64,000 nucleotides of DNA from Nitrospira sp. KM1 (GTDB lineage: Bacteria > Nitrospirota > Nitrospiria > Nitrospirales > Nitrospiraceae), in contig NZ_AP022671.1 in assembly GCF_011405515.1 (NCBI RefSeq), forward strand, positions 248,001 to 312,000. Reading direction: 5' to 3'. Below the pieces are notes generated by a model that saw only the letters and a program-made list of their open reading frames with translations, did no database searches and was not told the origin of the DNA. Both the position numbers and the translations under genes were made by a program. Of the stretch, positions 3,983 through 45,156 are shown piece after piece (position 1 is the first letter of the stretch; the number at the start of each line of letters is the position of its first letter).

Positions 3983-3998
3983 CTTCCTTCATCATCCT

Positions 3999-9376: not shown

Positions 9377-9432
9377 ATGCAAATTATTTGAAGATCAGTT
9401 CATATCCCGGATAAATGAATGCCGTTCCATGT

Positions 9433-15479: not shown

Positions 15480-15504
15480 CCAATGTCCTTCGCGTACGAG
15501 CGTG

Positions 15505-18084: not shown

Positions 18085-18493
18085 TGCTCGATTAACTCCT
18101 GTTATGGACTAGGCTTGGAAACTCAATTGCCGTATGGCTTTTCAGCCGCCTAGCTATGCCATTAACAGGAATGTGGCAATAACCCTTACGATTAGGGCCG
18201 GATTTCAGTAATACGTGCATTTTTGTTTGGTGAGTCTGACTTAGCTTCAGACAATTGAATCATGGCTGCTGCAAAGGAGGCCCATAGCCGACTGCAAGGT
18301 CTTGATTAACAGGGGAAGTCGATCGAGATGTCAGCAATGACTGTGCCGTTGCCGATACCGACGTGCACTCAGAATAGAAAAATCATGAACCGTGTATTAG
18401 GAGAGGACTAGATTGCTTTGTAGCTGGAACCAATATGGCTGGAAAGACCTATCGAGGGGGAGTCAAATAGAATCAAAAAGTAGGTACCATGAA
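18085..18493. other. Control region of the cytochrome/GMC operon
   Basis: No convincing gene is seen. The stretch holds the sigma-54 promoter at 18333-18348 and most of an upstream array that runs into the 3' end of the neighbouring peroxidase gene (18470-18506). A small hairpin GTCTGA..TCAGAC lies at 18234-18252. A long leader of roughly 240 bases would separate the promoter from the cytochrome ATG. Confidence 0.5.
18333..18348 (-). promoter_or_regulatory. Sigma-54 promoter of the cytochrome/GMC operon
   Basis: On the minus strand CGGCACAGTCATTGCT: GG-N10-GC spacing is exact, with -24 GGCAC and -12 TTGC. The distance to the paired array at 18470 is about 122 bp. The gene start is at 18084, so the leader is about 240 bases. 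Confidence 0.72.
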
Positions 18494-18506
18494 TCAGTTT
18501 GGATTC
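18470..18506. promoter_or_regulatory. Upstream activator array, half-sites at 11/10/11-bp steps
   Basis: GAATC at 18470, a degenerate TAGGT at 18481, GAATC at 18491 and GATTC at 18502. The last two form a perfect inverted repeat, GAATC-N6-GATTC. The step pattern 11/10/11 is identical to the array before fadL (36229-36265). It overlaps the last codons of the haem peroxidase gene, so it serves the cytochrome operon downstream on the minus strand. Confidence 0.6.
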
Positions 18507-21421
18507 ACGTTGCATGTCCTCTGAGCTGAGTTCGATTGAAAATCGGGATCTGATGTCGCATCAGCCCTGGGGATCCACGTCAGGCTGTAATATTCACAGC
18601 GGTCCCTTGCCCATGGATCGAACACATTGACGACATGTTTCAATTCAGATCGTAATTCTGGAATCGTTCGCATGAGCACCCGTTTCAACGGAGATACCTC
18701 CACCGTTCGGCCGTTCGATTTCTCCGGTTCATACAGCTTTCCGTCCGGCCCGTTATTGTTCACCCATTCGATCCCAAGTGTTGAATAGAATTCGGGCCGG
18801 AAGCTGGATGTAAAGAACCGGTCACTGAACAGACGCCGCGAAGCATTCAATATGAAGACTTGAAACTGGGTCTCTGAAATGGCAAATCCATGCGGCCGTA
18901 TTGGCTCTGCCAGCCACCCGACGACGGTATCAAGATCCTCGATATTATCCACAACGAGCGCCCTGTGGGAGCCCTGATTTTTCTCATGGCCCAAGCAATC
19001 GTTGATGGGTGTTCCGTCCTCATTGGTTTGCGCCCTGGTAATGGTCTTGCGCGGATCGCATGTGTGGGTGCCATAGATTTCTCGCAAGCTGATTACGAGA
19101 TCTTTCTGCCGCTTTAACTCAGGAGTGTTCTCGCCGAGGGTTCGATCGATAAAGTCGTCAAAACCGGTCAAGGTTCTCAGGCCATACTGCCGGCGGAATT
19201 CATTGAAGCGCGGAACGCCTCGTTCACGATCCCGTATGAGATCCAATGCCGCAACGTCGATCCGATTAGCTTTTCCGAGCCGATCGAGCGGCAGGTTTTG
19301 CAGAAACTGGGGGTGATTGTTGAGAGTGAGTCTGCCCAGACGTTGACGGCCCATCGACAGAGCCCAGTTCGCCAACCCCTTTTCACGCATGTACGCGGTC
19401 GCGTTACGCCCGACTGTTCGCACGACGGGTATCTTGCGCTGTATTTGGTTTGAAGTGTCGGCAGCGTCATCGGCCAATTCCCGGTAGTTGAGTAGATCCG
19501 GCACCATGGGATGCAACCGGTAGACCGTCACGAACTCTTCGGGAAAATTAAACGGTGAGCCGAAATGGTTTGTCCCGCCGTTGATGTCCTGTCTGTTGGC
19601 GATATTCCAGCGGTCGAGCAGATTCCAGCAGCGTGTGAACCACAACCGGCAATGTTGATTGCCCTGCCCGATGATTCCAGGCCCTGCCGCAAACGCGGAA
19701 TATAACTGTTCTTTCTCATCATGCTTGACGCCGGCAGATTTCAATATGGTCTTCAAGGCGGAGGCGACAATCGGCTCTTGAGTGTCGAACAGTCCCAACC
19801 AGGTCCCGGCATATAACCCATTCCAGTTGGCGGTCATCGCCTTATAAAGGGGTTCGTCGTATAAAAGCTGTGCCGTCCATTCAATGGTATGAATTTTCGC
19901 AATTTCGGCTGAGATGACGAGCCTCGTGACTTCGAAGAGATCGTCGTCGGTGACGTCCCACCAACGGATCACTTTGCGCGGCTCGTCGGGATTGCGCAGA
20001 CCGCTGTCATCATCGCTTTCGTCAACAGTCGCCTTTGCTCTGAGGGCACGTTCCTTAAAGGCTTCGACGAAACGATTGTGCTCACGAGCGAACACATTGT
20101 GATAAAAACTTAACCCGATGGACCAATTATCAGGAAAAGCCGTCGCCTCTTGCCCGGCCCATTGCGGGCTTGCCGGTACATCCGTGAGATCCAAGACCGG
20201 CAGGTAGCCCTGACTGTCTTGACGTTGTGACGCGATCTGCACCGTTTGTAAGCGTGACCGGTCCTGAGGATCGCGCTTCACCCGCATGGATGAAATCTGG
20301 TCATAGCCGTAAACTTGTGATGCATCCCACCAAGCAGTGACATGATTGTTTGTGGTCTTGTACGCCTGCGCAAGACGACCCGATCCGTCGGAGAATGGTT
20401 TCCCTGCCTCAGTAAGATCAGAACGATCTATTCGCCGGCTCGATCGGCCGATCGGCATTACGTCAGGTTGTCCATCAGCCAGGCGGTTATGGCCATCCTT
20501 GAGATGGGAGAACCAGTCATGGGTCATGAATTGAATCCAAAAAGCGGCGAGCACATTGAAGGAATTTGCCATCTGGTAATCGCAGGTCGCTTCCGGTGCA
20601 CTGCCTGGTAAGCCTTCGCATGTGTTTAGCGGACTTTGCAGGCGGGTGAATAATCTATGGCTAATCAACTGAGGATCTGGTTTCAATAACCCGATTCGGC
20701 CTCCATGCCGATTTCGTGAGAGTTCATCTCTGGCCTCGTCTGGAAACGTCGTTTCAAACTGAACGTTCCTGGCGAATGGTTGTCCCGTGGATCCCATCAA
20801 TGGATTGTCGATGTCATTGCACATTCCATCGAGACGGCGAAAGCGAATCGCTTGCCCCGTGCAACTCTGAGAATCATGCCCTTGAAGATGAAGCCACTGT
20901 TTTATAGCCGTGCCATCGGTCCCATCACCGGCAGGGCCGCGAATGTACTGTTCGTAGCTCCCACCGTTATCGAACAAATTGAACCTGATCATCTCCATCC
21001 GCTGATATTCGAGATCGAGCAATGCGCCTCGAATTCCTCTCCGATCCGGCGCCAGAATGCGGACTGTTTCCAAGGCATCTTGAAAAAGCTCCGGCAGGGA
21101 TTGGATCAGCCGTGATGCGCGGCTATGTCTGGAGTGGCTGTCGCCTGCAGCCCAATAATTCTGCCAGTCGACCCAAGGCAAGCTCCGTTGGGACACAGCC
21201 TTGTCTCCACCACGGCAACGAGCCGTTTCTTCCCGGACTTTTCCTAGAAAGCGAGTACTCCTCTCATGCGCGAGTTGTCGGGGACCGTCGAGATCCTTTT
21301 TTGCACAAGCGACAAGATCTTCGGCGTCGTTGCAGCCACTAACGGCCAGCACGGCTAACAAGGTCCACCAAAGGCATCGCTGCCTGTGGGTTGGTCTTTG
21401 ACTGCAATGAGATGACGGCAT
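18494..21421 (-). CDS. Animal-type haem peroxidase, alpha-dioxygenase-like, predicted lipoprotein
   Basis: A 975-residue protein with a signal peptide and lipobox VSGC (Cys30), an N-terminal region of about 180 residues with no recognised domain, and a haem peroxidase/dioxygenase domain. Signatures: NPLMGSTGQPFARN; distal His301 in WIQFMTHDWFSH; proximal His637 in EEFVTVYRLHPMVPD, with Tyr634 three residues before it. That Tyr-x-x-His pattern is what cyclooxygenases and plant alpha-dioxygenases use to abstract hydrogen from fatty acids; plain peroxidases lack it. Predicted activity: oxygenation of a fatty acid (2-hydroperoxidation if truly alpha-DOX-like) on the periplasmic face. ATG at 21421 was chosen for the lipoprotein signal; a longer frame from a TTG at 21676 runs into a repeat element and is rejected. 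No promoter was found. Confidence 0.87.
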   Translation of the reverse strand: MPSSHCSQRPTHRQRCLWWTLLAVLAVSGCNDAEDLVACAKKDLDGPRQLAHERSTRFLGKVREETARCRGGDKAVSQRSLPWVDWQNYWAAGDSHSRHSRASRLIQSLPELFQDALETVRILAPDRRGIRGALLDLEYQRMEMIRFNLFDNGGSYEQYIRGPAGDGTDGTAIKQWLHLQGHDSQSCTGQAIRFRRLDGMCNDIDNPLMGSTGQPFARNVQFETTFPDEARDELSRNRHGGRIGLLKPDPQLISHRLFTRLQSPLNTCEGLPGSAPEATCDYQMANSFNVLAAFWIQFMTHDWFSHLKDGHNRLADGQPDVMPIGRSSRRIDRSDLTEAGKPFSDGSGRLAQAYKTTNNHVTAWWDASQVYGYDQISSMRVKRDPQDRSRLQTVQIASQRQDSQGYLPVLDLTDVPASPQWAGQEATAFPDNWSIGLSFYHNVFAREHNRFVEAFKERALRAKATVDESDDDSGLRNPDEPRKVIRWWDVTDDDLFEVTRLVISAEIAKIHTIEWTAQLLYDEPLYKAMTANWNGLYAGTWLGLFDTQEPIVASALKTILKSAGVKHDEKEQLYSAFAAGPGIIGQGNQHCRLWFTRCWNLLDRWNIANRQDINGGTNHFGSPFNFPEEFVTVYRLHPMVPDLLNYRELADDAADTSNQIQRKIPVVRTVGRNATAYMREKGLANWALSMGRQRLGRLTLNNHPQFLQNLPLDRLGKANRIDVAALDLIRDRERGVPRFNEFRRQYGLRTLTGFDDFIDRTLGENTPELKRQKDLVISLREIYGTHTCDPRKTITRAQTNEDGTPINDCLGHEKNQGSHRALVVDNIEDLDTVVGWLAEPIRPHGFAISETQFQVFILNASRRLFSDRFFTSSFRPEFYSTLGIEWVNNNGPDGKLYEPEKSNGRTVEVSPLKRVLMRTIPELRSELKHVVNVFDPWARDRCEYYSLTWIPRADATSDPDFQSNSAQRTCNVNPN

Positions 21422-21559
21422 AGGTTTGAGGCGACTCGATCGGTCGAAACCTGCACAGGCGAATATGGCGATAGCCGTGAAGCAGTATGTTGACAAACCC
21501 TGTGACAACTTCGGAAATGGTATCGTGTCCGAGGTCACAGGCGCCAGCAGTCTGCCCTG

Positions 21560-21683
21560 CAGGCTGTTCAGAAAGGCCGTCCAGCAAGGCCGCAGCGAGT
21601 GAAGAGGCGAAGCGTACTCTGTCCCGTACGTTGAGTCTCTGAGCGATGCGAGAACGCCGCTGGCGGACTTTGTCAACAGCCTG
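21560..21683. repeat. Inverted-repeat-bounded intergenic element, copy 2
   Basis: The ends CAGGCTGTTCAGAAAGGC (from 21560) and GACTTTGTCAACAGCCTG (to 21683) are inverted repeats of each other and match the ends of the element at 488-765. The internal text CGCAGCGAGTGAAGAGG..CCCGTACGTTGAGTCTCTGAGCGATGCGAG partly matches the core of copy 1. At 124 bp it is less than half the length of copy 1. The remaining intergenic DNA here (21422-21559, 21684-21739) holds nothing I recognise. Confidence 0.65.
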
Positions 21684-22749: not shown

Positions 22750-24972
22750 CTATACGGCATGAGACGATTGTTCTTTTTTTGGCTGTTGAGCAATAGGCAG
22801 TGTGAATGTGAATGTGCTGCCCTTTCCGAGTGTGCTAGTAACCAGAATTTGACCGCCATGAAGTTCGACCAGACTCTTTACGATTGCCAACCCCAAACCC
22901 GCCCCTCGCTGATTGGAACTATGTGCCGCGCTTTTGAAAAACTTATCGAACACCCTGGGGATCTCTTCGATGGGGATGCCGCATCCGGTGTCGGAGATGC
23001 TAAATTCAACTGTCGTGTCTTGTTCTTTGTGCGTGACGGTGACACGAACCCTCCCTGTTGCGGGAGTAAACTTGAAGGCATTGCCGATCAAGTTAGTCAG
23101 AATCTGGGTTAACTTATCTTTGTCCACTTCGATCCTGGGAAGATTACCTATGAATGCCGATTCAAGAGACAAAGACTTTTCAGCTGCCAATGATCGAAGA
23201 GTATCAAGCGTGTCAGTAACGAATTCCTGCACAGAGATTGTTTGCGAATGCAACTCCACTCTTCCCGCCTCTATCCGTGACAAATCGAGGAGATCATTGA
23301 TCATGCGACTCAAACGATCGATGTTTACAAGCATACGGCTGAGATACTTGGATTGTTGATCATTGATGGTGCCTGTCAGCCCGTCCATCATATTTTCAAC
23401 ATACACTCGTATGGAAGTCATGGGGGTCCTAAGCTCATGCGACACCATTGAGACAAATGATGACTTGAGCTGATTCAGTTCCTGCAGCTGCTTATTTGCC
23501 AATTCGAGTTGAACCGTTCGCTCGTGCACTTTATCTTCAAGACCGACATTCAGCTCTTCGATCTCGCGATACGCTGAGACATTGTCGAGCGCGATCGCCA
23601 ATTGATTCGCAAAGGTCACCATCAGCTTAAGATCCTCTTGAGTCAAGCTGTCGGCCTTGCTTCGATCTACAGTAATTGCACCCAAGACTGAATGCTGTAG
23701 TTTTAATGGAACAGACAAAAAGGAAACCGTGTGTGTTTGCAGCGCAAGCTCACGATAGAGAGGATGCAAACGATCTACAATGTCGTCGATATTCCGCACG
23801 AGAATCGGCTCTCCTCTAAGAAGAACGGTTCCTTCGATTGTTGTGGGATCGGTGACTGGAACTTCAATCTTTTTGGCGAGATCTGCGACCTCCGCAGTCA
23901 CTCCCACTAGTCTCGCGCTGTGGGCCACATGTCGAGCGTCGTCATAAAATGAGATCATGACTCGGTCATAGGACAGTTTATGTATTAACGTTTCCAATGC
24001 GCATTTAAGAATATCCTCTCTATCACGCGTCGAAGTAAATGCTAGTCCGGTTTCGTGCAACGTGGTTAAATGATCAACACGCCGCCGCAATTCGGCCGTC
24101 AATTGCTGTTGTTGAACATATGATTTTTGTAATTCATCATGCCAGGCGTCAAGTGAGCGAGCCTGCTCCTCAATGATCTTCTGCCCTTCCTCGATACGCC
24201 GTGTTGACCCAGGTTTCCGGAACCATGTTGACGGTTGCCAGAAGCGAAGACGAGACTCGTGTACCGGCCAGACCACCTCCCATTCACAAAAGTCATCGCC
24301 CTCGGCAATACAGCTGCGATCAGTTACCCGCGCCGGCGGAAGTTTGTGAAAAATCTCAGGCACTCCGACGAAATAGCCCTTGACGGCTGTGCACCACAAT
24401 TTCGCACATGCACGACGGTACGGGCCAAAGTGTTTATGCGCACGTTCACTGAATTCAAATCGAAGAATGGCCCATCGATCCGAGGACGTGACCGTTTCCA
24501 CGTAGAAACAATTCCTGGAATATCTCTGCGCGATATAGATAGACATGCCATAGATCTGTTGAACCGAAAAACGGCGCAGCAGAATTTGAATAATCGGAGA
24601 GATGGCTTTTTTTCTTGCCATGTTGAATTGGAGATCGGGATCGCTGGATATGTCCGAGCAGAACTGGGTAAAGAAGGCTGAGAACTCGGTCGAGTAACTG
24701 TTCCAGGGATTCGTGATGAAATCTTCTGTCACGTGAAATGCAGGATCGGGTATGCGTTCGTTGAGCCGGGACACGAGTTCCTGAATCGCCTGTTTTCCGG
24801 CTTCGGGGCCGTCTCGTGCTGCGATGTATTCCTCGAGTTCTTCGACGCAGGCCCGTATGACCACACCGCTCAAGTCGCGGATCTTTGTCCCATCGGGCTC
24901 GTTGCCGAAAGGCTGAAATTCCATCAATCCCTTCTCTGTAATGGGATGATCTTTGGTAAGCAGCATAGTCAC
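22750..24972 (-). CDS. Sensor histidine kinase with V4R-like and GAF input domains
   Basis: A 740-residue soluble sensor kinase. Residues about 90-235 form a globular input domain ending [17 protein letters not shown], which resembles the C-terminus of V4R-type small-molecule sensors. A coiled coil (about 260-300) is followed by a GAF domain (about 305-465), another coiled coil, and a HisKA/HATPase core: phospho-acceptor His512 in SHELRTP, N-box [11 protein letters not shown] (about 627-637), G-boxes DTGCGIP (661-667) and [11 protein letters not shown] (689-699). No membrane span and no receiver domain are seen. It lies 48 bp after the cytochrome gene and closes the fadL-phospholipase-oxygenase operon, so it probably senses a substrate or product of that pathway. 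Its response regulator is not in the window; a sigma-54 activator would fit. GTG at 24972 or ATG at 24966. Confidence 0.88.
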
Positions 24973-25020
24973 GGGTTATGTTTTGGCAGCGCGTTGCTTG
25001 TTAAGCCCATATCGTACAGA

Positions 25021-26556
25021 CTACAGGGTTTTGAGGTACTCGATCAGGGCGCGTTTCTCCTGGTCGGGCAGTTCTGTTCCGTACGTATGTCCGCCATTTC
25101 CGTTGCCCTGCAACGCCGTATCATATTTGAAAAACCCTGGGCACTGCTCGTCGGTCAATTCCCATGCAAATCCTACATTCTCCCAATCGTATAAATCGTT
25201 GCCTCTGCAAAATCTCTTGGGGCGCCATTCTGGCTTCTGAAGGAGATGCCAGAGTGTCGGGACCGATCCATTGTGCAGGTATGGAGCACGAAGCCAGATG
25301 CCCGTCAGTAAAAGATTGGCGTACCCATAAGTTTTTCGATAATTTTCAAGTTTCCACATGGAGAGATGTCTCACTTCGTTGAGTTTGTCGCGTAACGCTT
25401 CAGAGAACGTTTCCAAACGGGCTCGATCCGTTCCGATTTCATCGATTCCGACAAGTCCACTCGTATGAACCCAGTATGCGGCGTGACAGTGCTTGCAGTT
25501 TTTGTCGAAGATATTCGCACCCTGGGACGCCAGCGTCTTGAACAGCACAGGATCGGGTTTAGGGTTCGGCGCTATCTCATGATAGGTCTCGACCTGATAA
25601 TCGGGTGACTCAAACCACTGGGAAATGCGCGTCACTGCAGGAAGGTCAAGCGTCGCAGGAGTCGCACCAGCTCCCAAAGCAGCAGTAATATTCCGTTCTT
25701 GAACACTCTGGTTATTGCCGTCCCAGTGAAGGAAGCCGTTGTCAGTTTTTTCCCTCCAGAGAGCGGGGAAATCAGCCAGGCCGGCCAATGATCCAGGATC
25801 CATTTCAATCGTATAACGGCCGAATCTCGGCAGCTTTTCAAACAGCCAGAAAGAGTCTTGGAGTTTGTGGACCTTGTAATACGCCCACGTATCTACCCTG
25901 CCGGGACCGAAGGGTGTCGGCCTCCGATCGAGAAAACCGAATTCGTGTTTCATTCTCTTGCCGCCGTCGCGAAATGCCGGAATAAGAACATACCGATGGA
26001 TAAATGTTTGCCAATAGCCAAGTTGCCCTTTTTTCTGTATGTGCCTGAGCACATTGTCCGCTGTAAATTTAGGATCTTCGACGACGGCAAATAAGAAGCG
26101 GAAAAACGATTCGGCATTGACCTTGTTTGCGGGCATGCCCAGGATAATTCTTGGATAGCTGTCCGGGGTCGGCCGCACGGTGGAGACGTGGCAGAACGCA
26201 CAATTGATACCGACGGTATATCCGATTCCGAGGCGCCAGCGTTTGGAAAGCCCAATCGGTCGATCGACCGAGCTGTTAGGGTCGCGCGTGAGTCCGAAGG
26301 CCTCATAACTCTTCGGTTTGCCACATGGGAGATGTTCGGGAAACATTTCAGGCAGTACCTGCCAGATTCGATACGGAAAACCTCGGCTCAGGTTGTCGGA
26401 TCCGATAGAGCCGTACTTGAAATGCATCGCACGATCATCATATGTCACCGGGTGTCCGTCCAGCACCAGATCGTTCAACAGATAGCAAACGACTGCGACG
26501 ATTCCCAGTCCCACCAATAATCTCTTGCCAGACTTAGGAGACCGATCGTGCTCCAT
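25021..26556 (-). CDS. Di-haem cytochrome c (peroxidase/RoxA-like), membrane-anchored
   Basis: A 511-residue c-type cytochrome with an N-terminal uncleaved-looking span (LLVGLGIVAVVCYLL). Haem sites are CAFCH (about residue 120) and CKHCH (about residue 350). The C-terminal motif GIWLRAPYLHNGSVPTLWHLL and the closing QEKRALIEYLKTL are typical of di-haem cytochrome c peroxidase-like and RoxA-like proteins. It is a shorter paralogue of the cytochrome at 15505-18084; both share the CAFCHV motif and the terminal D/EKRALIE.LKT. The gene sits 52 bp after the peroxidase-lipoxygenase fusion. It may supply or remove electrons for that enzyme, or act as an oxygenase itself. GAGGA before the ATG supports the start. 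Confidence 0.85.
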   Translation of the reverse strand: MEHDRSPKSGKRLLVGLGIVAVVCYLLNDLVLDGHPVTYDDRAMHFKYGSIGSDNLSRGFPYRIWQVLPEMFPEHLPCGKPKSYEAFGLTRDPNSSVDRPIGLSKRWRLGIGYTVGINCAFCHVSTVRPTPDSYPRIILGMPANKVNAESFFRFLFAVVEDPKFTADNVLRHIQKKGQLGYWQTFIHRYVLIPAFRDGGKRMKHEFGFLDRRPTPFGPGRVDTWAYYKVHKLQDSFWLFEKLPRFGRYTIEMDPGSLAGLADFPALWREKTDNGFLHWDGNNQSVQERNITAALGAGATPATLDLPAVTRISQWFESPDYQVETYHEIAPNPKPDPVLFKTLASQGANIFDKNCKHCHAAYWVHTSGLVGIDEIGTDRARLETFSEALRDKLNEVRHLSMWKLENYRKTYGYANLLLTGIWLRAPYLHNGSVPTLWHLLQKPEWRPKRFCRGNDLYDWENVGFAWELTDEQCPGFFKYDTALQGNGNGGHTYGTELPDQEKRALIEYLKTL

Positions 26557-26608
26557 AGTGCATCATCCTCGTACATTGTTGACTGCATCGTTGAAGTGAA
26601 TAATCGGT

Positions 26609-29600
26609 TCACGCATTGATGTTCGCTTCCAGCATCGCGGGATAAATCTTCCAGACCTCCCATGGATCTTTCTCCATCGTCGCTTGAAGCTGATGAAGAT
26701 CATGGCGAAATCTGGTAAAGGCAACTGCGCCTCGGTCGTCCAAAGCCAGATAGGAGAAATCATCCATGAGGGAGCGCCGGGAAACATTGAGATTGAAGTT
26801 CGCATTGATCAGCCGCTGATAGACATCTAGAGGTTCTCGCCGACCGTTGGTATAGACACGGACGGGTTGGCGATGCGTCCAGAGTTGATAGTTCCAGAGG
26901 GACGTCCCTGCCATCTCGTGCTGGACAGTAACCATATAAATCAACCGGGCGATCAGACGAGACAAGGATGCGCGTGTCAGCCGGTCGCCGGGCAATTCCA
27001 GTCCGTTTCGGACCAGGTGTTTCATGTCTTGAAGCCATGTTTCGATCTCTCTGTCTTCTTGTAAGCGAGCATCAGTAGGGTAGTAGGCAGCAATATATCG
27101 GCGGCAGTGTTTCAGAAACACGGCAAAAAGCTGTCTCAGATTATTCTGGGTCGGTGTGTTCAACGATACCTGCCGCTGCCGCCCCCCTCTCTTAGCAATT
27201 CCACGTGCCCGGGCGTCTAAAGAAGGATCATTTATGAGGATGGTATACGTGGAGAAAGTCTGTGAAAACAGGCGGCACATCTCCTCATAGGTGAAACTGA
27301 AGATTTCCTCGAAGTCGCCGTGTTGCGTCATTTGCACGCGGGTGACCATGTAATTGCTCTGTTGTGTGCCGTAAATGTGCGGCCACAATAAGCGGCAGAT
27401 CGGGTGATCAGACGACAGGCGATTTCTGGTGGCAAGAGCCAAGGGTTCACTGCCGGCCAGATGCACCCAGTTAAAATGCCGGACGAGAGACAGGTGTGTC
27501 GTTGCCGTGCAGAGAGCGAGTTTCTTGGCAAGTTGCCAGTTCGGGTCACCCGGCTTGGAGGTACCCAAGATACTCTCTATGAAACAAGGAGTGAGTCTCC
27601 CGGTGACAGGATCGTGAGAAAAGCCTACACGGGCTCCCAGGCGATAGAGGCCTTTGTGGCATGCGTAATCCTCAAGAGCACGGAAATCCCACAAATATAG
27701 GAGGTCATCGATCCGTTCCGTATAGCATGCATAAGGTCCTTTCACTGCAAGCGATCCCAGATCGGGGCTGCCTTCGTAGTCCGGAGGCAGTTCCGGAGGA
27801 TCAAAGGCCCGCCGCTGCAAAAAACTGTACGCATTCCTGATGGCTTTAAAAGGATCTGCTGATATGGCGGGTAGCGGATGGTCTGGCTGCATTGGCGAGA
27901 AGGTGGCGGTGAGCCGGACTTGAATCTGTGAGAAGAACTCTTTGAGTCCGGCCCGTTCGTCGGGCGCAACCGATTTTGAAACTCGGATGTTCGTGATCGG
28001 AATGTCAAATCGATCTGAGAATTGAACGTCGGGAATCCGGTCGAGTGCTTTCATTGCTTGAGAACGGTGCAGGCATGCATCAAGCCGGCTTTTGACGCAG
28101 TTCAAAAAATTTTCGAGGCTGCTTCCTCGCTGCCGAGCAAGCTTCGCATGCTTCTCGGCCAAAAACTTAATCCGCACTGCTTGCTTCCACCACCAGCGTC
28201 GCCGAGGCGGCGGGATTGGCACGGGTCGATTGCCTATAAATTTGACCCAGCAGAATAACCTCCAGAATAGGCCTCGGATACCCCAGGTCACTTCGGCGGT
28301 ACGGACCATCCAGACCGAGCCCACGAAGAGGGCAAAAATAAGCCCTCCCCATAGTGCTGAACGGCTTGTAGAGGCAGCCCAAATCAAGGAACAGAAACCC
28401 TCGTTCGAAGCTTTCTTCAATAGCGAGAGAATGACGCCGGCCGAAAGCCCCAGGACCGTGCCGCGTAAACCCCATATGACCGCCCAAGTCCAATCACGGA
28501 CGAGAACGAATGTCGTGCTGAATCCCACGAGCGTTCCGAGAACGAGTCCCGTCTCTGCCTGATCTGATAACAAGGCTTCAAACAACTGGATCTCATGGTT
28601 GAAAATCAGATGGGCAACTGTGCCGAACAACCATCCACATGCAGCGGCTATGGCGACCCACCCCGACATCGCGAGTATGAGCCCTGCGGCAGCACCGATA
28701 ACAACACCTCCCACGAGATGAAAACTCACTATATCTAATACCGTGAGACCTCTCTCTATAATGGGGAAGAATCCGCCGACAATCTCGATCAGTACCAAAG
28801 GAAGACCTCCTATAATAATGGCGGCTAACGCGCCAAGGAGGAAGCCGTCACGCAGTTGATGCTTTGATCGAACCACTGCATCCCGCAATACGGTCGCAGC
28901 TGCCACAATGGCGATTGCGCCGGCTACCATCGTAAGAACCTCTGTGAACGGCCAAAAATTTTCTGCCAAACTCAGTATCACTCCAACAATGAATCCAATA
29001 ACCCCTCCCCCCAGTGCTCCGAACAGGAATCCATAGGCTGAACGGGATAGATATTTGACCATACCGGAACCGCTGAAAACAGTTCGCAACGACTGCCGTC
29101 CCGCATAGATGATCGCAACCGCTGCTCCGCAGAATGCAGCAATGAGCGCCTCCGGTTCAGCGAGTGCCTCAAACAGAGGCAGAAGGTCCTGTTTGAGCGG
29201 AACAAAAGACACCTGCCGGAGCCAAAGGAACGCTACCGCACCCATAATCCAACCGATGGAGGCCCCGAGAATCACGCCAGCAGGACGTTGTGCTCGAACA
29301 TAACCGAGGACAATCCCCAACAACGCTCCAAGAAAGGCGGCTTTTGTCTCCAGTGCAGAAATGACGGTCGTCATAACTTCCCAGACGCCCCCAAACGTAG
29401 ATCCTCGTATGAGAGTGTAAACGACGGCACCGAGGATCCAGCCTATGGGAGCACCGACTCCGGCGGCTGTCTGCATCTGCTCCCGGAGCGTAAATTCCCG
29501 TGTCGCGAGGTAGCTGACCATGTACAGGGTTGCCAAACATGCCCCGCCCAGAATTGCGCCGATTGCGGTTCCATGAGCTGCTGATCCGGTGCCGAGCGAC

Positions 29601-31834
29601 TGCAGGAACTGCCCGGTCGTAAAACCCTCCGGAGACGCAGCGGCTCCCACTCCCGCTCCCACAAGCCAGCCGATAAATGCGCCGCCGAAGATGGGCATCT
29701 GGAAGATCGAAACACGCCGCATGTCTGGACGAGGATCGGCCGCAGCGGGGTTGGGATCCACCGGTTCGGGAGAGGGGCGTTCCGTGCGTTGCCACGGAGT
29801 GAATGCATTCTTGATATCGTCAAGCGCAGGGGCAAGATCTGGATAGTGACGCAGAAGGACGGTTTTAAAGTCGTTGTGCTCTACCCACTCCATGCCGACC
29901 GGTGTATACACGTCGGCGTTGAAGTCAGTGGTGATGAATCGATCGCTTTTCAGACGACGCGGGGCCATCAGAACAAATATCCGGAATGCCGTATCGCTGA
30001 ATCCGAATCCTTTCGGGAGTTCTTCTGCATGAAGTCCGACCATGAGGTCGAGATCTTCTTTGTTCGGATACCATCTCTTCAGCTGGCGAACCCACGTCTT
30101 TCGCTCCTCGATTTGGCGATTCGTGAGACCGCTGAACCATTTTAGGATCGGCACTCCCACGAGTCGACTGTACGAGATACACGGAGACATCATGAGCATC
30201 CGGCGAAAATTGTTATAGCGGGGAATGGCGCGCTCGCGGTCGCGCATGATATCGATCGTTCCCAAGTCAAGTGCTTCGCCTGGAGCCGGAAAGGTGTAGC
30301 CGTCTTCCCTAGTTCTTCGCAAATTCTGTAAGGCTCGCGGGAAATTGTTTAATGTGACGGCACCAGGATGAGCTACGCCGAATGAATACAGCAGATTCGT
30401 CACACCGGATTGCTGCACGAAGTTGCGCGTCTGATTGCCTTGAAGATCTTGGAACCGACACGCTATCTTGAGTTCGTCTGTATGCAGATCATAGATACGA
30501 TAATCGTCTGGGATTAACGGATGCATTCGGTATACCGAAACAAACTCTTCAGTAAGATAAAAAGGGGATGCGTGGTGATCTTGTTCCGATGCTGGGATTC
30601 CTGTGACTTCTTCTTGCAGGTCTCGCAAAATTCGCAACCGCCCAATGATCTTGGTGAAGCGCTGGGTGAGGATCCCCCACCAGTTCGCCCGCATTCCAAG
30701 GTATAGGGTGGGATGGCCCAAAACGGCCGGCGTCCATTCGACTGTGTGAATTTTGGCGATCAAAGCGGTATTGATCAGCCGTGCTGTTTGGAAAAGGCGC
30801 TCTCCCCTCCAATGAGGGTATGCCATTTTTAGCCGATCACATATCGCGTTATGCTCCAAAGCAAAAAGCGTGTGAATGAGATTAAGTCCTGCCCACCAGT
30901 TATCGTTAAAACCCGTCAAGTCGATGCCATTCTGAGTATCATCGGGCGGCAACGACCTGTCTACAGTATGTAATTTCCCGCTCTCGTCGCCTTCACGCAG
31001 CAACATCTGTTTGTCCAGGCTGCTTCCATAGAGCTGGGATCCATCCCACCAATGTGTCTCTGAATTCCGGTAAACTGGAAAGTCTCGAAGGCCTTCAAAT
31101 TTTCCGCCTGGGTCAAAGTCGCTGCTCGTCCGATCGACCGTATCATCTGGAAGCGTATCTCGAATAACCATCGTGGTTTGGTCCGGACTTCGTCCGGACC
31201 AGTTATCCTCGGGGTCCAACTCGACAGGAGGAAGAGTGTTCTCCCTTGGAGGGAAGGTTTGTCCAGCAGGGTTAGGAGGACGCCGGCGGTGATTGACCCA
31301 ATCATGGACCTGGAATTGGATCCAGGCGGCAGCGAAGAGGTTTAATGAGGATGCCGGTCTGAATCGGTCTCTGGTCAGAAGCGTGCGACTGATGTTCCGT
31401 GGGTTCGGCGAGAGAAGATTTTGAGACCTGTCCGCAACCTGTTCTTTGAACAAGTCATTGAGCCGCTTGAGCGGAAAATTTCTGGCAAACCGGGTTCCCG
31501 CACTGCCCATGAGAGGATCCTGCAGATCGTTGAAGGTTCCGTCGGCCGTGCGTGCAGTTCTGTAGGAAGGATTCCATGGCCACGTCCGAGGATCGGGCCG
31601 GGGCGGTCGTGTTGGCAGCAGCGACGTGTCGTAGAGGTTGCGCTTCCGCATGATAAAGCGGTGCATGGCGAGATTCCAGATGCCGATATGGCGCCAGAGG
31701 CGATGCCAGGGTACGAGCAGGTTGAGAAGGAGAAAGCATGCAGCCAGGACCCAGAAGAGCATGGCCGCGGTAACACCGAGCAACCCAAATACAAGCTTTC
31801 TCAGGAGGTCCCAGAGATACAATCGGTCAGTCAT
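26609..31834 (-). CDS. Alpha-dioxygenase-like haem peroxidase / membrane / lipoxygenase-like fusion protein
   Basis: A 1741-residue single reading frame with three parts. (1) After an N-terminal membrane span (about residues 13-40) comes an animal-type haem peroxidase/dioxygenase domain (about 80-690): DPLMGSAGTRFARN, distal His177 in WIQFQVHDW, and EEFVSVYRMHPLIPD with Tyr435 and proximal His438, close to plant alpha-dioxygenases. (2) About 710-1195 is a hydrophobic region of many glycine-rich helices, with the repeat GAxIGWxxGA seen three times (about 718, 794, 857). (3) About 1320-1741 is lipoxygenase-like: WQLAK, iron ligands His1453 and His1458 in HFNWVH, EPLALATRN..HPIC.LLWPH, YYPTDARLQEDRE, and His1639 at the third ligand position. 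The fourth ligand (Asn in soybean) is Gly1643 and the C-terminal residue is Ala, not Ile. Predicted role: two-step fatty-acid oxygenation at the membrane. It starts 36 bp after the phospholipase gene. Confidence 0.85.
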   Translation of the reverse strand: MTDRLYLWDLLRKLVFGLLGVTAAMLFWVLAACFLLLNLLVPWHRLWRHIGIWNLAMHRFIMRKRNLYDTSLLPTRPPRPDPRTWPWNPSYRTARTADGTFNDLQDPLMGSAGTRFARNFPLKRLNDLFKEQVADRSQNLLSPNPRNISRTLLTRDRFRPASSLNLFAAAWIQFQVHDWVNHRRRPPNPAGQTFPPRENTLPPVELDPEDNWSGRSPDQTTMVIRDTLPDDTVDRTSSDFDPGGKFEGLRDFPVYRNSETHWWDGSQLYGSSLDKQMLLREGDESGKLHTVDRSLPPDDTQNGIDLTGFNDNWWAGLNLIHTLFALEHNAICDRLKMAYPHWRGERLFQTARLINTALIAKIHTVEWTPAVLGHPTLYLGMRANWWGILTQRFTKIIGRLRILRDLQEEVTGIPASEQDHHASPFYLTEEFVSVYRMHPLIPDDYRIYDLHTDELKIACRFQDLQGNQTRNFVQQSGVTNLLYSFGVAHPGAVTLNNFPRALQNLRRTREDGYTFPAPGEALDLGTIDIMRDRERAIPRYNNFRRMLMMSPCISYSRLVGVPILKWFSGLTNRQIEERKTWVRQLKRWYPNKEDLDLMVGLHAEELPKGFGFSDTAFRIFVLMAPRRLKSDRFITTDFNADVYTPVGMEWVEHNDFKTVLLRHYPDLAPALDDIKNAFTPWQRTERPSPEPVDPNPAAADPRPDMRRVSIFQMPIFGGAFIGWLVGAGVGAAASPEGFTTGQFLQSLGTGSAAHGTAIGAILGGACLATLYMVSYLATREFTLREQMQTAAGVGAPIGWILGAVVYTLIRGSTFGGVWEVMTTVISALETKAAFLGALLGIVLGYVRAQRPAGVILGASIGWIMGAVAFLWLRQVSFVPLKQDLLPLFEALAEPEALIAAFCGAAVAIIYAGRQSLRTVFSGSGMVKYLSRSAYGFLFGALGGGVIGFIVGVILSLAENFWPFTEVLTMVAGAIAIVAAATVLRDAVVRSKHQLRDGFLLGALAAIIIGGLPLVLIEIVGGFFPIIERGLTVLDIVSFHLVGGVVIGAAAGLILAMSGWVAIAAACGWLFGTVAHLIFNHEIQLFEALLSDQAETGLVLGTLVGFSTTFVLVRDWTWAVIWGLRGTVLGLSAGVILSLLKKASNEGFCSLIWAASTSRSALWGGLIFALFVGSVWMVRTAEVTWGIRGLFWRLFCWVKFIGNRPVPIPPPRRRWWWKQAVRIKFLAEKHAKLARQRGSSLENFLNCVKSRLDACLHRSQAMKALDRIPDVQFSDRFDIPITNIRVSKSVAPDERAGLKEFFSQIQVRLTATFSPMQPDHPLPAISADPFKAIRNAYSFLQRRAFDPPELPPDYEGSPDLGSLAVKGPYACYTERIDDLLYLWDFRALEDYACHKGLYRLGARVGFSHDPVTGRLTPCFIESILGTSKPGDPNWQLAKKLALCTATTHLSLVRHFNWVHLAGSEPLALATRNRLSSDHPICRLLWPHIYGTQQSNYMVTRVQMTQHGDFEEIFSFTYEEMCRLFSQTFSTYTILINDPSLDARARGIAKRGGRQRQVSLNTPTQNNLRQLFAVFLKHCRRYIAAYYPTDARLQEDREIETWLQDMKHLVRNGLELPGDRLTRASLSRLIARLIYMVTVQHEMAGTSLWNYQLWTHRQPVRVYTNGRREPLDVYQRLINANFNLNVSRRSLMDDFSYLALDDRGAVAFTRFRHDLHQLQATMEKDPWEVWKIYPAMLEANINA

Positions 31835-31870
31835 GGAGACCTTTCTAGAGGTATCTCTTCTCCTTGGACA

Positions 31871-34387
31871 TTAGTGCCGTTCAGGCCAACATGTTTCGAT
31901 ATATTGAGCGAGCGTCTGCGTTATTGTCGGTTTGCATTTTGCAAACGTTGCATCCAACTGATCGTCTACTTCTTGAGTCGATTCATCAGAAAGAACCCAG
32001 CCCAATGGAAGATTTGACGAGCTTGCCCGAAGCTGGAACCGAAGGTATCTTGCGGGGAGGATCTTCTCGTATGCGGTTTGACGCTGAAGGTGAAGTGAGG
32101 CATGACGGCCACGAGCCTGTTGCGATTTATACATCGTGGTCAGCGGTGCAAACACTTCGTCGAGATAGGTGAGACCAGACTCAATCACGTCTACAACAGT
32201 ATCCTGACGGTCAAGCCGGAATGTGTAATGTCTCTTCTCCACGAGCCTATCTCTAACGGACTTTGTTGCCAGCAACAATGTCTGATTTGGCAGTCCCGGA
32301 GCGGATCGGCCGCAGTGCGGATTGGAGCCGGAAAATCCGTCAGGAACGCGTCCCTGAATTTCAACCCTTATACATTCGGGAATAATGGCGGAGTTATGCG
32401 TCTCGGTTATACCGAGATAGTGAACGCCGAGTGTCAAATACTCCGGATCGTTTCCAATGTAGATGACAACCGGTACGATCGTTCTTTGCTGGGCTCGACG
32501 GGCACGCCATTCGGTGAATTTTTGACTCATTATCGGGATCACCTCTCGATAGACTTCTTCCAAGGAGGTCATGCCGGAATTTTCGAAATACCCTCCGTCG
32601 ACGATACGAAGGCGATCGTGCAGTGTCCCCGCCGGACTGATAAACGAAAATCTGGCACTGTTGTTGACCGCAGTACTTAGCCGAACGGTCCGTGGGTGGG
32701 AATGATCGTCGCGATGATCAACGCACTTGGGAGTATTCAAAGTTTCAGAAAAGTCAATGACATCATCGAATACACCGATCACTCTTCCTGTCCATGAGTC
32801 CACACATCGACCTGCGTCTTCCGGTTGTGATATTCGCAAATTGCTGATCAGCACGCGATTACCGCCTTCGACTGATGTCATATTCAGAATCAAACCGGGA
32901 ACCTTGGGGGCGTTTGGGCCTTTCCAGAGATTTTCGAAGGAGTCCTCAAACCGGTTCAGTCGATTCTTTGTGATTCTGTTCCATTGCCGTTCCCAACTCA
33001 TTTCCAGTGTCTGTCCCCGGTCCCAATACTCAATCGGGAAAAGCAGGAAGCGTTGCAAAAGGTCCGGATAGAGAAGCGTACCGAATGTGGCTGAAAGATA
33101 ATCCTGTTTCAGCAGGTCTCTAGCGCATCCGGGGAAATCAGCAGCACTGGTGCATGAGGTGGAGCTACCCTCATCGGCCAGGAGAGCCGAGAAGATTGCG
33201 GCGCCCAAACTGCCTCCAGATACCGCGCTGATCACGAAGACATGTGATCCAAATCCGGGCATGTCCCGTTGAATTCTTGTAAGGATCGAGGCGGTCCAAT
33301 AGGCGGCTCGTATACCGCCACCCTCGGCCGCGACGAATATCACAGGGACCGAATCCGCATTGCGACGAACGAGGGAGTCCTCAAGGCGATGATCGAGCCA
33401 TGAATTGAAGTGATCGGGTAATGGCTGCTTGATCTCTGGGGGATCGTTGCGTGGAAGGGTCCGAATGGCGTGATTGTCGTTATAGGGACTAATCACTGCA
33501 ACATATACGAACAAGATTGTCAGAATTGGAATACGATGCCAGAGACTCCAATAGACGAGGGTAGTTCCGGGCGGTATCCAGGACGCCGCAGCAAGGAGGA
33601 TAATAGAGCCGGATCCGACTACGGGTGCAATGCATAGATTGACGCCTCGAGTTTGGAACACCACCAAGGGAATAATGAAGAGAAGCAAGAAGGACCAACC
33701 GAGAGCTTTGCGCGTCGGACCAGGCAGTGCATAGCTGTCGTGATAAAAAACACCAAATCGTGGATTGTCCGAATCAGAGAGGGGCGGGAGGAGTATTCTG
33801 TTCGCCAAGAAGAAATTCTGCCGCAGGCGTGCAGCCCAATCCCGGCGTTTCCGGACCACAAATGCAAAAATGACAGCGCATATAAGGTAGAGCACTCCGT
33901 TGCTGACGACAGGCCGCATCGCATTTCTGACGTCTAAGGACCTAAAAAATCCTACTGCGACGACCAGAATGGCAATGACACCGAGGGCACGAGGCACCAT
34001 GCGATGGTATCGCATGATTCGCTCGACTCTCCCTGACGGTTCAGAGGGCGGCCAATCACGAAATTGGAAGGATACGATGACTCGTGACCAATACCAAACT
34101 GCCCAAGCCCATACAAACACGCTTACGAAAAAAGCCATATTTTGGATGAGCCACCCGTCATCCTGTAGTGTCTGCAATCTGATCAGGACCTCCTGACCCT
34201 GAGAAGACCCTATAAAGAGGATGGCTACCAAGGCGATCGTCAAGACAGCGAAGCGACATAGCTTGAGTACTTGCCAAAGATCGAGCAGCGGTTCGAGAAA
34301 CTCCCTGACCGCGATTCCGAGGCCGTCAAAGAAGCTCCGACACCGAGTGAGATTATCTGATGATCTCACTGAGAATGGCTCCATCAT
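31871..34387 (-). CDS. Membrane-bound patatin-like phospholipase
   Basis: An 838-residue protein. The first about 300 residues carry several predicted membrane helices (about 45-62, 85-103, 133-150, 160-178, 230-246, 255-272, 285-300). The rest is a patatin-like hydrolase: oxyanion loop GGGIR (356-360), nucleophile Ser390 in AVSGGSLG (the first Gly of GxSGG is Ala) and catalytic Asp in DGGYFENSG (about residue 615). Patatin-like enzymes are Ser-Asp dyad acyl hydrolases that release fatty acids from phospholipids. Its position between fadL and the oxygenase fusion (45 and 36 bp gaps) makes supply of free fatty acid to the oxygenases the natural reading. A regulatory or signalling lipase role is the alternative. 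Confidence 0.88.
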   Translation of the reverse strand: MMEPFSVRSSDNLTRCRSFFDGLGIAVREFLEPLLDLWQVLKLCRFAVLTIALVAILFIGSSQGQEVLIRLQTLQDDGWLIQNMAFFVSVFVWAWAVWYWSRVIVSFQFRDWPPSEPSGRVERIMRYHRMVPRALGVIAILVVAVGFFRSLDVRNAMRPVVSNGVLYLICAVIFAFVVRKRRDWAARLRQNFFLANRILLPPLSDSDNPRFGVFYHDSYALPGPTRKALGWSFLLLFIIPLVVFQTRGVNLCIAPVVGSGSIILLAAASWIPPGTTLVYWSLWHRIPILTILFVYVAVISPYNDNHAIRTLPRNDPPEIKQPLPDHFNSWLDHRLEDSLVRRNADSVPVIFVAAEGGGIRAAYWTASILTRIQRDMPGFGSHVFVISAVSGGSLGAAIFSALLADEGSSTSCTSAADFPGCARDLLKQDYLSATFGTLLYPDLLQRFLLFPIEYWDRGQTLEMSWERQWNRITKNRLNRFEDSFENLWKGPNAPKVPGLILNMTSVEGGNRVLISNLRISQPEDAGRCVDSWTGRVIGVFDDVIDFSETLNTPKCVDHRDDHSHPRTVRLSTAVNNSARFSFISPAGTLHDRLRIVDGGYFENSGMTSLEEVYREVIPIMSQKFTEWRARRAQQRTIVPVVIYIGNDPEYLTLGVHYLGITETHNSAIIPECIRVEIQGRVPDGFSGSNPHCGRSAPGLPNQTLLLATKSVRDRLVEKRHYTFRLDRQDTVVDVIESGLTYLDEVFAPLTTMYKSQQARGRHASLHLQRQTAYEKILPARYLRFQLRASSSNLPLGWVLSDESTQEVDDQLDATFAKCKPTITQTLAQYIETCWPERH

Positions 34388-34432
34388 CCACCGTTCCCTT
34401 GGGCTTGATGTTCCTCTCCAGGAATCACGTCG

Positions 34433-35815
34433 CTAAAAACTCATTCGGAGATTGACTGATCCGATGTGCAATAAGGTTCTATATGTACCGTCAACCGTCG
34501 GGTTAATATTTCCTACTATGGTCCGCGATTCATAGATTTGAGCCTGGTAAGCCAAATCCAACCCGAGTGATCCGCGTCCTTTTTTGCCGAAGTGTCCGCA
34601 CGGAATTGATCCAAAAAGATGACCCTTGTCCTTACAAAGTAAGCCAAGTCCGATTGTGATGCCGTTGAAGTCGGATTCAGGAATCACCGGTGAAAACGTG
34701 GCGTCTGGAATCGGACTCTGTGAACGAATGTATCCGCCTCGAATTGCGACCTCCCATTGAGGCAGTCCTTCCACCTGCAGCCAGCGATGTTCAGTGCCGA
34801 TCATGACGACAACGCTGTTTTTCCAGTTTTGTGGAAATGGCAGCGTTGCTCCATTGGAGAGGTGGATATCCAGGTTACGGAAGGACTTCCATCCCACGTA
34901 GTCCAGATCGAATTCGAGCTTCCACTCTCTTTCATCATTACGCACAGGCCAGATTGCCACTCCGCCGGAATAAATTTGCGGCAACACCGATGTGAAGGCC
35001 GTGTCTGCGACCGCCGCTCCGTTGACCATGAATTGGCCTTTGAGATGAAACGTGGCTTGAGATCTATACACTAGACCGATGTTTACGAGTGGTTTGCCGG
35101 CTTCATTTCGGATGGGGGTGTACAACATGCTGATGTTAAAGCCTGCCGTCGTGTTGTTTCCGTTAATTTCCAATGGTGCACCGGAAGGAATGCCCGGAAT
35201 TCCCGGATTGTTAAATTTCTGTTCGAATTGGCCCTCTCCGATGAAGCTGGCAAATGTATAGATATCGGCGCCTATACCGAAAGAAAGTTGGTCATTGAGT
35301 TTAAAGCCGAGAGTTGGCTTGATATCCAGCAACGGTAATTGAGCGCTGGTCACAGCCGACGAGAAGGGACCGTCATTTGGATACCGGACATTCAGGCCGA
35401 ATGGTGATGTGACTCCGAGACCTAAAACAGTATTGCCAAGGCTGGAAAAACCGAGATCTTTGAGGTTCGCCGTAAGGTACAGGTTGCTCGGTGGAGGAAC
35501 GGCAACACTTCCTCCTACATCGCCGTGGACATCGACTCCTGCCGGGCTTCGGTACGAAACCCCGCCTCCGACCAGCGTAGTTCCTACAGATACCTGGAAT
35601 CCTTGTAATTGGGTCATCCCTGCCGGGTTATAATGTATGGCGGAAGGATCGTCGGCCTGAGCTATAAAAGCATTGCCTTGACCGTGAGCCGAGGCACTTT
35701 GAGGCATTATCCGAAAGGCTTCCCCGTACGCCTCATGTACTCCCCAGTGCAGTGCGGTAAGAAGAACGACGGGGACAAATGCAGCCTTCCAACGACGAGT
35801 CAATGCTCGAAGCAT
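34433..35815 (-). CDS. fadL: FadL/TodX-family outer-membrane fatty-acid channel
   Basis: A 460-residue outer-membrane barrel. A signal peptide ends at about AYG-EAF. The mature N-terminus has the FadL hatch-domain motifs GNAFIAQADDPSAIHYNPAGM (NPAGM at 63-67), and the C-terminus ends in a typical barrel strand with terminal Phe (NLRMSF). FadL proteins let long-chain fatty acids or other hydrophobics cross the outer membrane by lateral diffusion. ATG at 35815 was chosen because GGAGGG lies 5 bases before it; a longer frame from 35857 lacks a site. It is the first gene of the phospholipase-oxygenase-cytochrome-kinase operon, behind a sigma-54 promoter at 36118-36133. Direction of transport (import of fatty acid or export of oxidised product) cannot be told. 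Confidence 0.9.
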   Translation of the reverse strand: MLRALTRRWKAAFVPVVLLTALHWGVHEAYGEAFRIMPQSASAHGQGNAFIAQADDPSAIHYNPAGMTQLQGFQVSVGTTLVGGGVSYRSPAGVDVHGDVGGSVAVPPPSNLYLTANLKDLGFSSLGNTVLGLGVTSPFGLNVRYPNDGPFSSAVTSAQLPLLDIKPTLGFKLNDQLSFGIGADIYTFASFIGEGQFEQKFNNPGIPGIPSGAPLEINGNNTTAGFNISMLYTPIRNEAGKPLVNIGLVYRSQATFHLKGQFMVNGAAVADTAFTSVLPQIYSGGVAIWPVRNDEREWKLEFDLDYVGWKSFRNLDIHLSNGATLPFPQNWKNSVVVMIGTEHRWLQVEGLPQWEVAIRGGYIRSQSPIPDATFSPVIPESDFNGITIGLGLLCKDKGHLFGSIPCGHFGKKGRGSLGLDLAYQAQIYESRTIVGNINPTVDGTYRTLLHIGSVNLRMSF

Positions 35816-36117
35816 ATCGACCCTCCACAAACTCGATGAATGTAGGTCTACGCGCATATCCTGTTTAATGAAGTAAGAACTAAAGAATTGCTTGTCCGAT
35901 CTTTAAAGACAAACGATTTATTGCGAGGATTCAAGATGTCTGCGCGATGAAGTTGTAGAAGATCCTGTCGATTGGCTGGAGTGCGCATTAGCTAGAGAAC
36001 TAGAAAACAGAGCCAGGGTATTTGGCCCGCTGTTGACTTGATGAAACTATTCCAGAGGCAAGGCTTCATCCTAGGACCCACACATTCAGTTCCGGAGTGA
36101 TGAACGGTTCTGCCGTC

Positions 36118-44433: not shown

Positions 44434-45156
44434 TCATCCGCCAAGGGTATCGAGCGATTCCTTTAAGCTGCGACGGATGCAGGTGAAGATGGGCGTGTCG
44501 CGAAGCGTATAGCGCGATCCCTCGGTTTCTCGCAAAGCCATCACGAGGTCCAAGAAATCTTCCGGTTTATCGCTCTCGAAGGCGACGACCCATTCTTGGT
44601 CGTCAAGCCCGAACGAGTAAGTCGTATTGAGTTTCACCGAAGGGAACCGGTGTCCGACCTCGATATGTTCATCCATCATTCCCTGGCGGGCTGCTTTGGT
44701 AAGCAGGAACCACTCCCGTGTTTTCAAGAACGGGTACACGAAAATGTATTTGCTTTTGCCGGGGACCACGGTCAAACGCTTGCTTTCCTGACCTTCATGC
44801 GAATGGTTGTCCACATAGATCGAACGCTTGGTCATGGACAGATAGGAATACGGCGTTGTGAGATACTTCCCCAGGCCTGAGGCGAAGATCTTCATGGTCA
44901 TTTCTTGGAACAACTCCAAGTCATAACTGATCCGCCACAGCATGATGTCGCAATCGCCCCGGATGCCCACGGCGGAGTAGGCGATGACGAGGACCTTTCC
45001 AGTGTAGTCTTCGACGGCGCGAATGAATTCCTGTTTTCCCCTTGTCCGTTCATCCTCGGGGAGCCTGCGCCAAGCTGGATCAATTTTATAGAATACGAAG
45101 TTGACGTACTGGCGTTTCGGCGGCTGCTGCGCCGGCTGTTGTTCGGGGCCTGCCAT
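44434..45156 (-). CDS. hemQ: HemQ-type coproheme decarboxylase (chlorite-dismutase superfamily)
   Basis: A 240-residue member of the chlorite dismutase fold. It carries the coproheme decarboxylase signature YPFLK (Tyr141, Lys145) and the proximal haem ligand His164 in MMDEH. At the place of the distal Arg of true chlorite dismutases (the motif VKRKLYHSTGLDD) it reads VKLNTTYSFGLDD, so Leu176 replaces Arg and chlorite dismutation is unlikely. HemQ turns coproheme III into haem b with H2O2 in the coproporphyrin-dependent pathway. GGAGGAA, 5 bases from the ATG, fixes the start. It has its own promoter (45209-45238) and terminator (44374-44413), so it is a single-gene unit. It would serve the many haem proteins encoded nearby. 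Confidence 0.85.
   Translation of the reverse strand: MAGPEQQPAQQPPKRQYVNFVFYKIDPAWRRLPEDERTRGKQEFIRAVEDYTGKVLVIAYSAVGIRGDCDIMLWRISYDLELFQEMTMKIFASGLGKYLTTPYSYLSMTKRSIYVDNHSHEGQESKRLTVVPGKSKYIFVYPFLKTREWFLLTKAARQGMMDEHIEVGHRFPSVKLNTTYSFGLDDQEWVVAFESDKPEDFLDLVMALRETEGSRYTLRDTPIFTCIRRSLKESLDTLGG

Follow-up and report, generated by a model that had tools for sequence, protein, structure and literature searches.

A membrane protein of Nitrospira sp. KM1 joins an α-dioxygenase domain to a divergent lipoxygenase homologue

The stretch of DNA analysed here, referred to as the window, comprises 64,000 nucleotides of Nitrospira sp. KM1 (NZ_AP022671.1, positions 248,001 to 312,000). On its minus strand a single reading frame of 1741 codons runs from the ATG at 31834 to the stop at 26609, and encodes, from the N- to the C-terminus, an α-dioxygenase (α-DOX) domain, a membrane block and a domain homologous to lipoxygenases (LOXs). 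The fusion gene is the third member of an operon-like run on one strand (35857..22750), in which the genes for a FadL-type transporter, a patatin-like protein, the fusion, a RoxA-like protein and a histidine kinase are separated by gaps of 36-52 nt. About 5-11 kb further downstream, counted from the fusion gene, are the genes for a second α-DOX-like and a second RoxA-like protein. The features of the locus are the following:

34433..35857, minus strand: FadL-type fatty-acid transporter of the outer membrane, with which the run begins (PF03349, 5.5e-33)
31871..34387, minus strand: membrane protein with a patatin-like phospholipase domain (PF01734, 2.1e-7; GxSxG-like 'AVSGGSLG')
26609..31834, minus strand: the whole fusion gene, 1741 aa (open frame; full-length relative in N. 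moscoviensis)
31712..31768, minus strand: N-terminal hydrophobic segment of the fusion, residues 23-41 (hydropathy; also present in N. moscoviensis, residues 19-37)
29834..31552, minus strand: α-DOX domain, residues 95-667, with H177/H438, Y435, H363, T368 and R627 (PF03098, E 6.3e-97; plant α-DOX 4hhr, E 4.9e-94)
28052..29764, minus strand: membrane block, residues 691-1261, 12-14 predicted helices with GxxxG/GAxIGW motifs (hydropathy, loop charges)
26612..28051, minus strand: LOX-homologous domain, residues 1262-1741 (PF00305, E 7e-16; profile against PDB LOXs, 6.8e-19; hhalign E 8.4e-30)
27461..27478, minus strand: His1453 and His1458 (HFNWVH), putative first two iron ligands, aligned with the canonical HxxxxH and invariant in the clade
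26906..26920, minus strand: His1639, putative third ligand, and Gly1643 at the canonical Asn position (HE..G or HD..G in 22/22 clade members)
26612..26614, minus strand: C-terminal Ala1741, at the place of the canonical Ile/Val carboxylate ligand (Ala 20/22, Thr 2/22)
25021..26556, minus strand: dihaem RoxA-like cytochrome c peroxidase (PF21419, 2.6e-15; NF040606, 1.5e-46; RoxA 4b2n, 5.9e-12)
22750..24972, minus strand: cytoplasmic sensor histidine kinase with an H-NOX/V4R-like N-domain (weak), GAF, HisKA and HATPase domains (Pfam; Foldseek on a model of pLDDT 61)
18494..21676, minus strand: second α-DOX-like protein, 1060 aa (PF03098, 2.1e-63; α-DOX 4kvj, 3.6e-58)
15505..18084, minus strand: second RoxA-like dihaem protein, 859 aa (NF040606, 3.8e-11, below cut-off; CAFCH at 253, CARCH at 503)

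The original prediction had described the single frame and its coordinates correctly, leaving out its minus-strand orientation; read on the plus strand, the interval contains many stops. Among 84,980 species genomes searched, the best match to the fusion was a 1592-aa protein of N. moscoviensis, which has the same domain order and aligns over fusion residues 1-1741. An assembly or frame error merging two genes would fit the fact that split DOX and LOX genes are the rule in relatives, but deserves hardly any credit, because the frame is continuous, the GC content by codon position is similar throughout its three parts, and the N. moscoviensis protein is an independent full-length fusion encoded in a complete genome.

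By every feature examined the N-terminal half is, at the level of sequence, an α-DOX. The profile match to PF03098 (residues 95-667) is above the cut-off, and among solved structures the closest is the plant enzyme 4hhr, whereas lactoperoxidase and cyclooxygenases match this half only at 1e-11 to 1e-6. A cyclooxygenase identity was rejected, since α-DOXs match far better. The haem domain being of the PF03098 family, the catalase-like haem domain of other LOX fusions was not found in this protein. In the characterised α-DOXs (PMC8720084) the residues corresponding to His177 and His438 are the distal and proximal haem ligands, Tyr435 is catalytic and is flanked by Phe431 and Phe620, His363 and Arg627 bind the carboxylate, and Thr368 positions the α-carbon. 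All eight of these residues are invariant in 12 aligned sequences. Among the aligned homologues are some from Calothrix and from Leptolyngbya, two genera in which α-DOXs have been characterised (CalDOX and LepDOX; PMC8720084). The DOX half is 46-48% identical to cyanobacterial homologues.

The C-terminal half is more difficult to classify. The homology to LOXs is clear: residues 1432-1657 match PF00305 above the cut-off, a profile built from seven members of the clade matches solved LOXs in the PDB, and hhalign against 28 bacterial LOXs (prob 99.8) covers the catalytic domain up to the last residues. The three putative metal-binding histidines align with the canonical ligands and are invariant in the clade, which consists of 22 sequences from Nitrospirota, Myxococcota and one member of the Acidobacteriota. 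They occupy, like Tyr435, His438 and His177 of the haem domain, the positions that had been claimed for them. The rest of the predicted metal site departs from the canon. According to a 2026 review the features common to all LOXs are three His, one His, Asn or Ser, and the terminal carboxyl, which usually belongs to Ile and very occasionally to Val (PMC13059375). At the fourth-ligand position all 22 clade members carry Gly, whereas Asn is found in 28/28 canonical bacterial LOXs; hhalign allows an alternative reading, in which a 5-residue insertion would bring Asn1648 to the canonical Asn position. The last residue is Ala in 20 and Thr in two of the 22 clade members, as against Ile in four and Val in 24 of the 28 canonical enzymes, and the terminal carboxylate of the clade still lies at the right end of the alignment despite the Ala/Thr. 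Another property of all 22 sequences is an invariant Glu/Asp directly after the third His. A long branch sets the clade apart from the canonical LOXs in the tree (split at 100/100). An AlphaFold model of the LOX part, made with 7 alignment rows, had a mean pLDDT of 41.5, too low for use. Thus, of the lipoxygenase-like C-terminus originally predicted, the homology and the three histidines stood, while the fourth-ligand Gly and the C-terminal Ala/Thr, both clade-wide, set it apart. Because of these replacements and the long-branch split we call this half a divergent LOX homologue and not a lipoxygenase; it may not belong among the functional LOXs, and with Gly for Asn and Ala for Ile the oxygenase chemistry may have been lost.

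The glycine-rich, multi-helix region noticed earlier between the two domains corresponds to 12-14 hydrophobic segments in residues 715-1177, the number varying with the hydropathy threshold. At 1e-5 this block had no match elsewhere in 172 genomes of the family, and the similarity between the blocks of the window protein and the N. moscoviensis protein was not significant (Smith-Waterman score 99; shuffled mean 63, sd 12, highest shuffle 125). The loops carry 35 and 6 K/R on the two sides, a positive-inside bias, which drops to 13 vs 6 once both flanking stretches are excluded; in N. moscoviensis the topology suggested by the loop charges is ambiguous. The bias points to the DOX and LOX parts lying on one side, the cytoplasmic side, of the inner membrane.

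The LOX clade is present in 20 of 175 genomes of the family to which the window belongs, in two further families of the same order, in 5/195 Myxococcota (two of these representing a deeper branch) and in 1/396 Acidobacteriota; 386 cyanobacterial genomes yielded none at 1e-40. The two sequences of the deeper myxobacterial branch (L128, L129) end in ...SVST and have HENVG at the third His, and there is no DOX near them. A fused DOX-LOX protein was found only in the window genome and in N. moscoviensis. Where enough sequence is visible, most Nitrospirota have the two as separate genes 40-245 nt apart, and they are adjacent also in three loci of Myxococcota (L055, L126, L127); in Archangium and a second myxobacterium the LOX precedes the DOX. 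In one genome (G045; L088 / L134) the LOX-adjacent DOX is broken by three TGA and one TAG codons, while the LOX and the kinase are intact. Five loci (L121-L123, L135, L169) have the LOX without a visible DOX, thus neither obligatorily accompanies the other. The trees of the two halves conflict: the DOX domains of the window and of N. moscoviensis are sisters (100/99), whereas in the LOX tree N. moscoviensis joins other Nitrospirota (96/95) and the window LOX falls outside. In view of this conflict, and of membrane blocks without significant similarity, the candidate histories are two separate fusions or a swap of the LOX part.

Among the neighbours, the first RoxA-like protein has CAFCH at 119, CKHCH at 354 and APYLHNGSVP, a form of the MauG-type PYxHNGSVP motif, and scores 159.7 bits with NF040606 (cut-off 150). 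It has these features in common with the 10S-dioxygenase and the diol synthase of P. aeruginosa (PA2077/PA2078), which are dihaem proteins with two CXXCH and PY(F/L)HNGSVP (PMC4496055) and whose products are quorum signals (PMC6377657). In the 4.5-Mb genome both DOXs, the sole LOX of the clade and both NF040606 matches are located within 16.3 kb, and at the thresholds used there were no further α-DOX-like or RoxA-like members. The second oxygenase group (13440-21676, minus strand) consists of the 1060-aa α-DOX-like protein, which has all key residues, the 859-aa RoxA-like protein and a GMC oxidoreductase; relatives of this α-DOX-like protein with about 970 aa are common in the family. FadL orthologues (49-54% identity) stand beside the LOX-kinase pair, after the kinase, in five other loci. 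Scans for promoters and terminators found fewer sites than in shuffled sequences. The window also contains a two-partner-secretion block (811-12489, minus strand) with two TPS exoproteins, a ShlB transporter, a CHAT-TPR protein and a DUF928 protein, and a gene of the chlorite dismutase family (44437-45156, minus strand), which fits a Nitrospira-type genome.

The linkage between the LOX and the kinase is conserved: a kinase of the same type follows the LOX on the same strand in all 16 Nitrospirota loci examined, even where the DOX is absent, and in the window the RoxA-like gene sits between the two. On a weak model (pLDDT 61) the N-domain of the kinase most resembles H-NOX and XylR/DmpR-type phenol sensors (Foldseek, H-NOX E 1e-4, prob 1.0, TM about 0.4); profile searches gave a sub-threshold V4R match (E 0.13) and no match to the H-NOX family. 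Folds of the H-NOX/V4R type serve haem or small hydrophobic ligands. The sensor family, whose N-domain carries the motif CIxxGDxxCEWEVxW, occurs in 137 of 172 Nitrospiraceae genomes, mostly without a LOX, and has a second copy in this genome (G000:C1:870869-871585). This distribution weakens the idea of a LOX-specific receptor and makes the kinase a paralogue that was recruited, and the linkage is no proof of oxylipin sensing.

We favour the view, with a probability of roughly 55%, that the fusion is an inner-membrane, cytoplasm-facing oxylipin synthase, supplied by FadL and the patatin-like protein and carrying out a two-step lipid oxidation. What the analysis demonstrates is the set of domains, the conserved residues, the operon-like gene order and the conserved linkage of LOX and kinase; the activities, reaction order, topology, product and signalling that we infer would be as follows. 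FadL would import long-chain fatty acids, to which the patatin-like protein would add acyl chains freed from membrane lipids. In the α-DOX domain a haem-generated radical on Tyr435 would allow O2 to be placed onto carbon 2, giving a 2-hydroperoxide that would decay to the shorter aldehyde. An even-numbered helix block would tether the LOX-fold domain on the same side of the membrane as the DOX, where it could act on the same lipid or hydroperoxide by means of a metal site made of three His and the C-terminal carboxylate. In the periplasm the RoxA-like dihaem protein may modify product that has been exported. The cytoplasmic kinase encoded next door plausibly responds to the lipid substrate or product. 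We count in favour of this oxylipin synthase the domain matches, the retention of all functional residues of the α-DOX, the invariant His and fixed C-terminal end of the LOX clade, the occurrence of DOX with LOX, fused or adjacent, in two phyla, the short intergenic gaps, the positive-inside bias and the clustering of the oxygenase domains. Against it count the off-canon metal site of the LOX part, the decrease of the loop-charge bias without the flanks, the LOXs without a visible DOX and a kinase family that occurs mostly without a LOX.

It is possible, although we hold this only tentatively, that the LOX-like domain is a LOX-fold hydroperoxide isomerase, which would isomerise or dehydrate the α-DOX hydroperoxide by way of a looser metal site. 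The clade-wide changes from Asn to Gly and from Ile to Ala/Thr, together with the three retained His and the new acidic residue after the third of them, would be consistent with such a converter, and so would its frequent pairing with a hydroperoxide-forming enzyme; by analogy with other fusions, the partner domain may process the hydroperoxide made by the first one. Nitrospira is not known to contain the polyunsaturated fatty acids which LOXs need, and this also speaks for conversion. It is harder to reconcile with the loci L121-L123 and L135, where the LOX stands beside the kinase and FadL and no DOX is visible.

Equally tentative, in our opinion, is an explanation by fatty-acid catabolism or detoxification: the operon would break down imported or damaged lipids by α-oxidation and play no part in signalling, and the fusion would merely co-localise two enzymes. 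FadL, patatin and DOX do make sense as uptake and breakdown, and the kinase could simply regulate the operon; but there were no aldehyde-dehydrogenase or beta-oxidation genes among the neighbours examined, and the dedicated kinase stays with the LOX even in the absence of the DOX. We consider it improbable that the LOX-like domain is a catalytically dead adaptor for lipid binding or signalling with the kinase as its real partner. The linkage of the LOX to the kinase is indeed tighter than that to the DOX, and the LOX ligands are altered, but the three His and the exact C-terminal end are invariant at roughly 45% identity across three phyla, which is hard to explain unless a metal is needed.

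The oxylipin synthase proposed here can be compared with several known systems. The α-DOXs AtDOX1, OsDOX, CalDOX and LepDOX (PMC8720084) resemble the fusion in the whole N-terminal domain, in the haem ligands, the catalytic Tyr and the carboxylate-binding His/Thr/Arg, but stand alone, whereas the fusion adds an N-terminal hydrophobic segment, the membrane block and the LOX homologue. Fusions of haem enzymes with LOXs in corals and cyanobacteria, and of peroxidase-type dioxygenases with oxidases in fungi, are already known (PMC5617202, PMC11719350, PMC13049297). The AOS-LOX and HPL-LOX of the coral Capnella (PMC5617202) and the catalase-LOX proteins of Anabaena and Acaryochloris (PMC11719350) likewise combine a haem enzyme with a C-terminal LOX; in these, however, a catalase-related haem part uses up what the LOX makes, whereas the fusion has an α-DOX of the peroxidase-cyclooxygenase superfamily and a LOX part that belongs to a different clade and has altered ligands, the two being separated by a large membrane block. 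In the fungal DOX-CYP proteins (linoleate diol synthase, PMC13049297) a dioxygenase of the peroxidase-cyclooxygenase superfamily is also joined to a second oxidative domain, which is a P450 instead of a LOX homologue. The P. aeruginosa LOX, Cyanothece CspLOX2 and the Myxococcus LOXs (PMC6612559) share with the fusion the LOX fold by profile, the HxxxxH pair and the third His; bacterial and mini LOXs carry H...N and a C-terminal Ile/Val (28/28), where the clade of the fusion has Gly and Ala/Thr. Finally, the oleate-diol synthase operon of P. aeruginosa with OdsR (PMC4496055, PMC6377657) also has RoxA-like dihaem proteins and an adjoining regulator of its own, but there the dihaem proteins are themselves the dioxygenase and the diol synthase and the regulator is of the LysR type, whereas the window has an α-DOX, a LOX-like domain and a histidine kinase.

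The domain order, which had seemed new from the sequence, was not found described in open-access papers, and the same literature held no description of the α-DOX/LOX pairing, of the internal membrane block, of the altered LOX ligand set or of any oxylipin biology in Nitrospira. Beside the known fusions this looks like a variation, and the case for anything beyond that is no more than plausible. Speculatively, the clade could be a LOX-fold branch of metalloenzymes not seen before, whose site would consist of three His and a C-terminal Ala/Thr carboxylate, without the Asn, His or Ser. Together with the α-DOX, to which it is in places joined as a single membrane megaenzyme, and with a kinase dedicated to lipid sensing, it would form a bacterial producer-sensor module for oxylipins; its chemistry, the conversion of α-hydroperoxides by a LOX fold, would be one not yet described.

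Fusions between haem enzymes and LOXs have been a key to new oxylipin pathways, and those that we found described pair the LOX with catalase-related proteins. The combination of α-DOX with LOX, encoded side by side in two phyla and within a single membrane protein in two genomes, leads us to predict a two-step lipid oxidation of a new kind. Since the LOX clade lacks two of the features that every LOX is said to share, it can serve as a natural test of the metal-site residues on which LOX chemistry depends. Nitrospira play a central part in nitrification in soil, sewage and drinking water. Our results suggest that a member of this nitrite-oxidising lineage has a bacterial pathway by which oxidised lipids are produced and possibly also sensed.
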